From NCBI GenBank assembly GCA_031257695.1, contig JAIROB010000018.1:1-9459 (forward strand): 9,459 bases of DNA, given 5' to 3'. Position numbers and translations under genes: made by a program. Shown piece by piece: positions 5,506 through 7,279 of this stretch (positions within the stretch are counted from its first letter, which is position 1; each line of letters starts with the position of its first letter). The notes below the pieces were generated by a model. The model was not told the origin of the DNA. It made no database searches and was given only the letters and a program-made list of their open reading frames with translations. The DNA is from Treponema sp. (lineage in GTDB: Bacteria > Spirochaetota > Spirochaetia > Treponematales > Breznakiellaceae).

Positions 5506-6138
5506 TTATTTTTGTGCCTCTGTGTCTATGATACAATGGCTGTAGGCGTTTATTACCTGGGTTTTCTTATACTCCGTGGAACGCACTTCGGAAAAGTCGT
5601 ACAAATGGATATGGCCGTGGACCAGGTACCGGGGCTTAAAAACCCGCATGAACCAGAGAAAGGCCTCAAAGCCCCGGTGGCAGAGGTCCTCCCGGTCGTG
5701 GATGCCCCGGGGAGCGGCGTGGGTCAGGAGCACGTCGAGAAAACGTCCCCGGAACAGGCGGTTAAAGAGCAGCGCCGGAATGAGGCGCAGAATCCGGCAG
5801 CCCATCTGAAAATTGGTGTACTGGTTCTCCCCCCGGTTGTACCGCATGGAGCCCCCCAGCCCGGCTACGATGAGATCCCCCTCCCTGACTACCCGGGAGC
5901 CCACGTGGACGACGCCGTGCCCGTTGTCCCGGCCGGCGGCCTGTTCCGCGAAGGTCTCCACATGGTGGTTCCCGAACACGAACAGCAGGGGCTTGTTCAG
6001 GCTGGAAACGACAAAATCCAGATAATCCAGGGGAAGATCCCCCGCGCTGAGAATCAGGTCTATGTTCTTAAAACGTTCTTTTATTGACTCCGAGTAAACC
6101 AGGGGATCAATCTGATCGGAAATACAGAGGATTTTCAT
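5506..6138 (-). CDS. Calcineurin-like metallophosphoesterase
   Basis: The 210-residue protein shows the metal-binding signatures of the calcineurin-like phosphoesterase superfamily: SDQID at 7-11, AGDLPLDYLD at 32-41 with D34, FGNHH at 55-59, LTHAAPRGIHD at 138-148 with H140, and VHGHIHLY at 173-180. The first motif is unusual: SD-x-I-D replaces the common D-x-H, and the third is GNHH rather than GNHD, so metal preference may differ. The small compact domain without a signal peptide suggests a cytoplasmic enzyme acting on a phosphomonoester or diester; the substrate is unknown. It is the first gene of the operon with the ParB-fold and pyridoxal kinase genes. No Shine-Dalgarno sequence is visible before ATG 6138; a hairpin occupies that position. 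Confidence 0.87.
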   Translation of the reverse strand: MKILCISDQIDPLVYSESIKERFKNIDLILSAGDLPLDYLDFVVSSLNKPLLFVFGNHHVETFAEQAAGRDNGHGVVHVGSRVVREGDLIVAGLGGSMRYNRGENQYTNFQMGCRILRLIPALLFNRLFRGRFLDVLLTHAAPRGIHDREDLCHRGFEAFLWFMRVFKPRYLVHGHIHLYDFSEVRSTEYKKTQVINAYSHCIIDTEAQK

Positions 6139-6145
6139 ATTTAAG

Positions 6146-6176
6146 GCTGTTCCAAAACTTCAGTTTTTGGAACAGC
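6146..6176. repeat. Hairpin 1 upstream of the phosphoesterase gene
   Basis: GCTGTTCCAAAA (6146-6157) and TTTTGGAACAGC (6165-6176) form a perfect 12-base-pair stem with a seven-base loop. It ends eight bases before the phosphoesterase start codon and shares its GTTCCAAAA core with hairpin 3 at 6223-6261. It could form in RNA from either strand. Confidence 0.85.
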
Positions 6177-6193
6177 TTCCTTAGATTTACTAA

Positions 6194-6218
6194 AAAAACC
6201 GGGCTCTGACCGGTTTTT
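6194..6218. repeat. Hairpin 2
   Basis: AAAAACCGG (6194-6202) pairs with CCGGTTTTT (6210-6218) around a seven-base loop. On the plus strand the right arm is a T-run, so it resembles a rho-independent terminator, but no plus-strand gene ends here. A related sequence, CCCGGTTCTGACCAGTT, lies at about 6351-6367. Confidence 0.7.
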
Positions 6219-6222
6219 CCAA

Positions 6223-6261
6223 GAGCTTGTTCCGAAACCAACAGGGTTTTGGAACAAGCTC
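6223..6261. repeat. Hairpin 3, long palindrome related to hairpin 1
   Basis: GAGCTTGTTCCGAAACC (6223-6239) pairs with GGTTTTGGAACAAGCTC (6245-6261) over 17 positions with one mismatch (a G-T pair in one orientation) and a five-base loop. The arm is a lengthened version of the hairpin 1 arm, suggesting two members of one dispersed palindromic repeat family. Confidence 0.85.
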
Positions 6262-6376
6262 AATTGTCCCCCGCTATTGCCGATAATTACCTTGACCATT
6301 GGTTTTTCCAATTTAACAAGAACATATTTTATTGTAGTATATGCAAAATGCCCGGTTCTGACCAGTTGGAAAGGCC

Positions 6377-6541
6377 GGGGGTCCGGGGGTATTGAACCCC
6401 CGGAGAGGGGAGCTGCCGAAGGCAGCGGGGTGCCCGAGGGGGCGTCCCCCTCGGCTGGGGGTCCGGGGGCATCGAGCCCCCGGAGAGGGGGTAGCGTAAG
6501 ACGTGCGAAGCACGGCTGAAGCGAGGGGGAGACTTCCCCCC
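6377..6541. repeat. GC-rich hairpin array with a 34-base direct repeat
   Basis: Two 34-base copies (6377-6410 and 6457-6490) start exactly 80 bases apart and differ at three positions, all transitions. Each begins GGGGGTCCGGGGG and holds a CCGGGGG/CCCCCGG stem with a seven-base loop; all three differences lie in the loop. Between and after them are GCTGCC-GAA-GGCAGC (6412-6426), CCGAGGGGG-CGT-CCCCCTCGG (6434-6454), CGTGC-GAA-GCACG (6502-6514) and GGGGG-AGACTT-CCCCC (6525-6540). That is six stems in 165 bases. Open frames through it are low-complexity artefacts. It ends 31 bases before the start of the next gene. The repeated, palindromic build suggests a dispersed intergenic element or a structured RNA leader. 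Confidence 0.85.
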
Positions 6542-6571
6542 TTGAGAAACCGGGATTTGGAGGAACGGCGG

Positions 6572-7279
6572 GTGTTTTTCGGGAAGAGGGCCTTTGCGGC
6601 GCTTTGTTTTTCATGCTTCTTCGCTGGGAGCCTCTACGGGCAGAGTTCCTTTGCCCAGGGGGAGGAGCTTTTTCTTCGCAACAAGCCCCAGGAAGCGCTG
6701 GTCTACCTTGAGTCGGCCATAGCGGAAAACCCCGGCCAGATCCGGGCCTATCTCTACCTGGGGGTTGCCTACCAGCAGTTGAACCGCCTGGACGAGGCTG
6801 TCGTTGTGTACCGCCGGGCCCTGCCTATCGCCGGTCCGGATACGGCGCTCATAGCCTTTAATCTGGGCAATGTCTACTACGCCCAGGGAAACCTCACCCA
6901 GGCGGAGGATCTGTACACCCAGGCTCTGGAGGCAAACCCGGGCTACGCGGCGGCCTACCTGAACCGGGGAAACGCCAGGCTCGCCAGGCAGGCCCTGCAG
7001 GACGCGATTTACGATTATGAAGCCTACCTCAACCTTGAGCCGGGGGCGGCCAAACGGGGCAGGATAGAACAGCTTATATCGGCGATCCGCTCGGACTTTG
7101 CAGCGGCGGAACGGGAACGCATCCAGGCCGAGGCGAAGGCGTCCGCGGAAACGGATCGAAAACGGCGGATCCTGGAGGAGGCAGCGGCTTCTCTGCAATC
7201 CGCGGCGGAGGACACCAAGGGGCTTTCCTCGGGCAGCGAGGGGGGGCTCGGTTACGAGGGCGAATTTGAACTGGAATAG
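6572..7279 (+). CDS. Exported TPR-repeat protein
   Basis: I place the start at GTG 6572, which has GGAGG (6559-6563) eight bases upstream; the frame also reads back to 6503, but that part is repeat sequence. The 235-residue protein begins with a basic start (FFGKR) and a hydrophobic core (AFAALCFSCFFAGSLYG), so it is probably exported, with cleavage near residue 23. No good lipobox is seen. Residues 27-158 hold about four tetratricopeptide repeats (for example AYLYLGVAYQQLNRLDEAVV and AAFNLGNVYYAQG-type units), helical hairpins that bind partner proteins. Residues 175-212 are a charged coiled-coil-like helix, and the tail is acidic and glycine-rich (GSEGGLGYEGEFELE). The next gene starts nine bases after its stop and also encodes a TPR protein, so the two likely form an operon and may form a complex at the cell envelope. 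Substrate or partner is unknown. Confidence 0.85.
   Translation: MFFGKRAFAALCFSCFFAGSLYGQSSFAQGEELFLRNKPQEALVYLESAIAENPGQIRAYLYLGVAYQQLNRLDEAVVVYRRALPIAGPDTALIAFNLGNVYYAQGNLTQAEDLYTQALEANPGYAAAYLNRGNARLARQALQDAIYDYEAYLNLEPGAAKRGRIEQLISAIRSDFAAAERERIQAEAKASAETDRKRRILEEAAASLQSAAEDTKGLSSGSEGGLGYEGEFELE

Follow-up and report, generated by a model that had tools for sequence, protein, structure and literature searches.

Palindromes that lie in frame within coding sequences are best known from Rickettsia. PMC10969869 describes Rickettsia palindromic elements of about 150 bp, with 44 insertions in R. conorii genes. For REP sequences, PMC3733652 gives an unpaired terminal GTAG in >90% of the members of most GTAG families, and a GGGGWSAS motif that forms inverted repeats around some Y1 genes. 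The same paper places CGTC REPs mainly in alphaproteobacteria and also in Spirochaetes, with intragenic copies and no known transposase. Here we describe a hairpin array in a Treponema sp. genome that is very probably a tandem pair of a dispersed, apparently mobile three-hairpin palindromic element.

The hairpin array and its surroundings

The window, the whole stretch of 9,459 nucleotides that was analysed, encodes an outer-membrane-efflux-like protein, a RelB-like antitoxin, a tRNA, a double-zinc-ribbon protein, a pyridoxal-kinase-like protein, a calcineurin-like phosphoesterase (minus strand, start 6138), two TPR proteins, an ACT-domain protein and a protein with a sub-threshold DUF4032 match. 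The hairpin array lies within the divergent gap 6139-6571. To judge from the sequence, GTG 6572 is the most likely start of the TPR gene, with GGAGG at 6559-6563, and the array ends shortly 5' of this ribosome site, as the sequence-only reading had stated. An Rfam search of the window at the gathering score gave a single match, the tRNA at 2709-2781, and none at the array. Directly 3' of the RelB-family antitoxin gene (PF04221, 2030-2302), no ORF of at least 80 amino acids was present on the same strand as a candidate toxin, and at approximately 1470-1655 there is a fragment that by eye resembles the C-terminal end of an IS630-like transposase (LPPYSPNLNLIERFWK) and seems to have decayed. Two more hairpins in the same gap as the array, 6144-6178 and 6223-6261 (TGTTCCAAAAC...GTTTTTGGAACA and GAGCTTGTTCCGAAACC...GGTTTTGGAACAAGCTC), are mutually related by look and may belong to another repeat family.

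A repeat search found one direct repeat in the gap, with 38-nt copies at 6373-6410 and 6453-6490 that are 89% identical and 80 bases apart from start to start, the spacing that had been claimed for the repeated units. The predicted fold contained the six hairpins previously proposed, and the folding energy of the array lay beyond that of 200 of 200 dinucleotide shuffles on both strands (z -4.0 for the plus strand, -5.6 for the minus strand). The copies had also been said to differ at three positions of a 34-base core, all of them in loops. There are indeed three differences, but two of these constitute one compensatory stem-closing pair: in hairpin A (stem TCCGGGGGT/ACCCCCGGA, loop ATTGA), T6390-A6396 of copy 1 corresponds to C6470-G6476 of copy 2, a T-A to C-G replacement, leaving T6393/C6473 as the sole loop difference. 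A fourth difference was located inside the 4-base 5' extension of the core. The most fitting description of the array is a three-hairpin element that occurs twice in tandem (Table 1). Close pairs of this kind were rare, with two matches no more than 250 nt apart in 4 of 125 loci, one of which was an overlapping weak reverse match.

Table 1. Coordinates of the array, its hairpins and the adjacent features, with the basis of each assignment
Feature	Position	Strand	Basis
Promoter-like site TTAACA-16-TAGTAT, 5' of array	6313..6340	+	Consensus match only
Unit 1, degenerate copy	6375..6450	+	Covariance model R1 match, 34.8 bits, E 5.2e-6; 38-nt repeat with unit 2
Unit 1 hairpin A, TCCGGGGGT-ATTGA-ACCCCCGGA	6382..6404	+	Fold
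Unit 1 hairpin B, GCTGCC-GAA-GGCAGC	6412..6426	+	Fold
Unit 1 hairpin C, CCGAGGGGG-CGT-CCCCCTCGG	6434..6454	+	Complementarity; partly in folds, parts pair otherwise; overruns model match
Unit 2, canonical copy	6455..6540	+	R1 match, 92.5 bits; copy itself in R1 training alignment
Unit 2 hairpin A, TCCGGGGGC-ATCGA-GCCCCCGGA	6462..6484	+	Fold; family covariation
Unit 2 purine tract GAGGGGG, mirror image of hairpin C 5' arm	6485..6491	+	Sequence; family statistics
Unit 2 hairpin B, variable stem, GAA loop 6507-6509	6492..6524	+	Fold; family covariation
Unit 2 hairpin C, GGGGGA-GACT-TCCCCC	6525..6540	+	Family alignment and pair counts
TPR gene, 3' of array	6572..7279	+	ORF and TPR families; start GTG 6572 chosen; listed ORF from 6503

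Distribution and covariation of the family

A scan of a species-genome collection with the hairpin A pattern returned nine stretches. Six were in Treponema or Spirochaetes/Spirochaetaceae MAGs and had a longer skeleton in common, which was absent from the other three, unrelated stretches (Streptomyces, Synergistaceae and Hasllibacter; L001, L003 and L006). By BLAST, each of the six spirochaete genomes yielded 8-44 matches at E <= 10, and the weakest of these are attributable to chance. The covariance model R1, built from 16 copies aligned with MAFFT including window positions 6455-6540, found 9, 2, 12, 5, 35 and at least 150 copies in the six MAGs at E <= 0.01, compared to 0, 0 and one weak match (E 0.007) in the genomes of the three unrelated stretches.

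At least 32 of 247 Spirochaetota genomes were positive for R1 at E <= 1e-3, with a best E <= 1e-6 in 28 of the 32. Under the stricter threshold of E <= 1e-6, which was used for the other groups, at least 12 of 385 alphaproteobacteria were positive (13 copies, with the same skeleton by eye), and there were no matches in 384 Actinomycetes or 185 Synergistota, absences that are soft and come from control sets with no known positive among them. The counts from searches of more than 40 genomes are lower bounds, the first look having taken 18 candidates per genome in Spirochaetota, 11 in alphaproteobacteria and Actinomycetes, and 24 in Synergistota. At E <= 1e-4, the copies numbered 58 in genome G238, 38 in G203, 16 in G152, 15 in G122, 4 in G257 and 6 in G258. 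Among plasmid records, four had a match to the window array and nine to a plasmid copy; with the exception of Polymorphobacter and Tardibacter, these plasmids are Sphingomonadaceae-like by name. Phages had no match at E <= 0.01, and viral contigs had no exact pattern match. The unit, mostly 71-133 nt long with three hairpins, was GC-rich even where the locus was about 40% GC. The abundance of the element at unrelated sites of spirochaete genomes, and its few copies in alphaproteobacteria, support the earlier suggestion of an intergenic repeat or mobile palindromic element. No account of such a family in spirochaetes was found in the open-access literature covered; PMC3733652 does mention CGTC repeats from Spirochaetes, with no species named.

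The stems of the family have been kept through compensatory changes, in line with the selection on structure that had been suggested. Among 93 distinct copies, 93.7% of the cells were paired, two-sided change was seen in 19 of 23 pairs and two-sided cells numbered 240 versus a shuffled mean of 58.9, in an alignment that was fitted to R1 and whose pair counts therefore lean toward structure. The 16-copy MAFFT alignment, which was not fitted to the model, had 35 two-sided cells versus 14.6 and a covariation score of 0.255 versus 0.097. Its 8 pairs with two-sided change were equalled by 73 of 500 shuffles; the other measures were never or rarely reached. Hairpin B was the most variable of the three. 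One-sided changes, G-U pairs included, were few (43 cells in the 93-copy alignment), and this scarcity, together with placement in either orientation, would fit DNA pairing better than RNA pairing. Among the 124 copies with a scored hairpin, 29 of 54 hairpin B triloops fit GNA, a type of loop that is suggestive of DNA hairpins.

The 5' arm of hairpin C mirrors the purine tract that precedes hairpin B, and the two tend to co-vary. In 121 parsed copies, the arm GGGGGA was accompanied by the tract AGGGGG in 59, while the arm GGGGAA was accompanied by AAGGGG in 21 and by AGGGGG in 1; exceptions to the mirror included AAGGGG with GGGGGA (18 copies) and AGAGGG with GGGGGA (7 copies). Such co-change is what a purine-purine-pyrimidine triplex would need, and common descent of subfamilies could produce the same pattern. 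The idea that the purine tract pairs with the 3' C tract and its flank was discarded, as the flank does not change along when inspected by eye.

Placement, coding copies and mode of spread

All 58 copies in G238 are on the first contig (3.43 Mb), and 13 of them are in frame, with the frame staying open for 150 nt or more to either side. The reading frame is held in either orientation, 7 copies being antisense and 6 sense to the element. Ten of the 13 are in recognisable genes: MetH (two), GltB, ABC-F ATPase (two), DNA polymerase I, a PcrA/UvrD-like helicase, CarA, PurF and MnmE. The gene calls were mechanical with the most upstream starts, and the NCBIfam names of the MetH piece, which was cut by the fetched stretch, and of the helicase were below the curated cut-offs. 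The ORFs that hold the remaining three (L106, L114 and L267) lack a good name. The element is predicted to add about 25 amino acids to these housekeeping proteins, and peptides like GGSLPLAPA...TPSAGDTP and GGVTGVSP...GEGETSP have the appearance of translated repeat DNA and not of domains. The alignment of PurF with 1ao0_A stopped at residue 187 (query 231) and restarted at 188 (query 257), a clean 25-residue insert, and residues 330-367 of the ABC-F protein were opposite chain residues 335-338 of 4fin_A; the MnmE alignment was too loose at the element to reveal a clean insert. In CarA the element precedes the glutaminase domain in both G238 (sense) and G203 (antisense), probably as a result of independent landings. 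The coding copies are all outside the window.

One loop of GltB was compared in 30 loci, taken from among 49 genomes with a match; 29 of the loci were informative. The element was present in 4 (L221, L226, L230 and L237), 2-6 residues were found in 12, and the other 13 had different stretches of 9-50 residues, some of which are other palindromes by eye; several palindromes use this loop as an insertion hot spot. Other insert families, with peptides such as VVEPVETT and SHGFDFANAK, were seen in this loop in L222, L228, L229, L238 and L247. The position of the element within GltB also differs between G238 and G087 (L108 and L151). The peptide VVSIRPxAYSTT, perhaps a further coding repeat family, was found in both CarA and MetH of G203 (L144 and L147).

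Of the other 45 copies in G238, 44 could be classed as co-directional (30; 14 sense and 16 antisense), convergent (8) or divergent (6). On the assumption that the origin lies close to the start of the contig, 37 of the 58 copies are in one sense, a count that was not used as evidence of strand bias. The copies listed begin with GGGG and end with CCCC, only 4-5 bp for a possible terminal inverted repeat, and the 3' flank preference is TYYT (80 copies). Matching flanks of 2-9 nt, the sign of a target-site duplication, were found in 0 of 80 copies versus a shuffled expectation of 2.9 for 2 nt, although the element ends were assumed and a shifted boundary could mask a duplication. Two sites of G152 with different flanks share the same 72-nt copy, letter for letter. 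Neither a mobilising enzyme nor a copy gained or lost between near-identical strains was seen, and the element may have spread by ordinary duplication and recombination. We favour its spread as non-autonomous mobile DNA, which would involve a trans-acting enzyme that recognises folded DNA, rather than any action as RNA; the copies would persist where they are least harmful, immediately past gene ends or, in frame, within loops and domain linkers.

It is very unlikely that the element is a REP moved by a Y1 (RAYT) transposase. The distribution is REP-style, with intragenic copies as in PMC3733652, and of the 114 copies that could be parsed (138 distinct, 24 unparsed), 71 have GTAG before hairpin B. 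However, the GTAG bases are partly paired, the G and the following C being within hairpin B, and there was no association with Y1_Tnp: among Spirochaetota genomes, it was present in 12 of the 32 that bear the element and in 85 of the other 215, and it was lacking in genome G005. Y1 loci were fetched for 16 of the 22 matches in element-bearing genomes and for 9 others, and the element was found near none of the 16 or the 9 at E <= 0.05 (best match in the 16, 15 bits, E 0.09). The stretch GGGGAGAC of hairpin C resembles the GGGGWSAS motif; 10 of the 16 loci from element-bearing genomes lack the motif, and the other 6 have no inverted pair near the gene by eye. With no link in presence/absence or neighbourhood, Y1/RAYT was rejected as the mobiliser. 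A bolder proposal is that the element represents a new translation-tolerant class of mobile palindromes in Spirochaetota and alphaproteobacteria, whose mover, neither Y1/RAYT nor a transposase that makes duplications, would recognise a DNA fold of three hairpins with the purine tract as a third strand on hairpin C. We regard this proposal as speculative and, taken as a whole, unlikely.

The location of the array between a promoter-like site and a ribosome site, the strong fold, and several other copies that end close 5' of a start codon (e.g. L070, L081 and L152) would suit regulation of the TPR gene by a structured RNA leader, such as an attenuator or riboregulator, as the sequence-only reading had proposed. 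When the TPR protein was compared with the seven genomes of the genus to which G005 belongs, five clear homologues emerged (L191-L195, 49-59% identity), whose leaders are shorter than that of the window. R1 found no array at that position in any of the five and nothing at all in four; in L194 (G005) a weak degenerate copy of 17.8 bits was further upstream, past a promoter-like block by eye. The gene order is unlike the window in at least one of these relatives: the phosphoesterase gene of L192 is again upstream, as it is in the window, but a divergent TPR gene, recognised by eye, separates it from the TPR homologue. Because the five orthologous leaders lack the array, it is a lineage-specific insertion and not a conserved leader RNA. 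Moreover, Rfam had no match at the array, the G238 copies occur in either orientation, mostly nearer gene ends than starts or intragenic, and divergent gaps hold only 6 of the 44. A leader function is thus extremely improbable, and any effect of the array on the TPR gene would probably be incidental. At this locus, the element would have landed between the promoter-like site and the TPR ribosome site and been duplicated in tandem. A divergent TPR gene between the phosphoesterase and TPR genes was seen by eye in both L192 and L194; at that place the window has repeats only, as if the gene had been lost.

A transcription terminator or mRNA-end block, also suggested earlier, has an equally slight chance of being correct. 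In G238, 23 of the 30 co-directional copies are nearer the upstream stop than the downstream start, a count biased by the use of the most upstream starts, but orientation in these gaps is neutral (14 versus 16). The hairpins of the array have no T-run after them, no gene ends into the divergent gap of the window, and the sole terminator-like site in 6130-6620 is another hairpin, 6144-6178. Finally, a chance cluster of GC-rich hairpins is virtually inconceivable: such hairpins form easily in GC-rich DNA and the first pattern scan caught three unrelated sites, but the reading is refuted by copies that are dispersed and covarying, GC-rich in loci of about 40% GC, and absent at E <= 1e-6 from the 384 Actinomycetes genomes.

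Comparison with known systems

The family would be a second large in-frame palindrome system beside that of Rickettsia, with tens to more than 100 copies in some genomes. The inserts in DNA polymerase I, PurF, CarA, GltB, MnmE and MetH would be natural experiments on the tolerance of an insert of about 25 residues, and the element makes the question of what moves such palindromes testable across spirochaetes. Similar intergenic clusters should not pass as gene-specific leaders in annotation. The most interesting parts are outside the window, namely the copies in housekeeping genes and the possible purine mirror in the fold.

Like the Rickettsia palindromic elements of PMC10969869, the element is a dispersed palindrome found in frame in unrelated genes and apparently translated as extra peptides, as seen in 13 of the 58 G238 copies and in PurF, ABC-F and CarA when set against solved homologues. 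By description, the two differ in host, Rickettsia versus spirochaetes and alphaproteobacteria, and in the three hairpins and mostly 71-133 nt of the present element. The resemblance to MITEs is also partial: the element is small, non-coding alone, present in many copies and, in the copies listed, has GGGG...CCCC ends, but neither a target-site duplication, which a MITE of a duplication-making transposase would have, nor a parent transposon was found.

The GTAG REP/RAYT system, as described in PMC3733652, resembles the element in high copy number, placement near gene ends and intragenic copies that include DNA polymerase I and a UvrD/Rep-type helicase, and many copies of the spirochaete element read GTAG before hairpin B. 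However, the spirochaete element has three hairpins versus one, its GTAG-like bases are degenerate and partly paired, where an unpaired tag is the rule in GTAG families, and the RAYT association is missing. CGTC REPs share with it the range of alphaproteobacteria and Spirochaetes, the lack of a known transposase and the intragenic copies; in the same paper, they have a single 8-9 bp stem that opens with A-T pairs, a CGTC tag and mostly a CCA tail. The consensus here, GGGGCGTTGCGGGG...CCCCGCAGAGGGGG, lacks this combination of tag, A-T-starting stem and 3-base tail, having CGTT before a GC stem in addition to hairpins B and C. High copy number, conserved stems, sites near gene ends and in-frame copies within genes are traits that it has in common with REP and Rickettsia palindromic elements. 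Because the tests for the GTAG tag, the CGTC tag and RAYT failed, the element is considered a new family or variant of the REP/Rickettsia-palindrome kind and not a member of either REP superfamily. By analogy with both systems as described in PMC3733652 and PMC10969869, it works like REP and Rickettsia palindromic elements.
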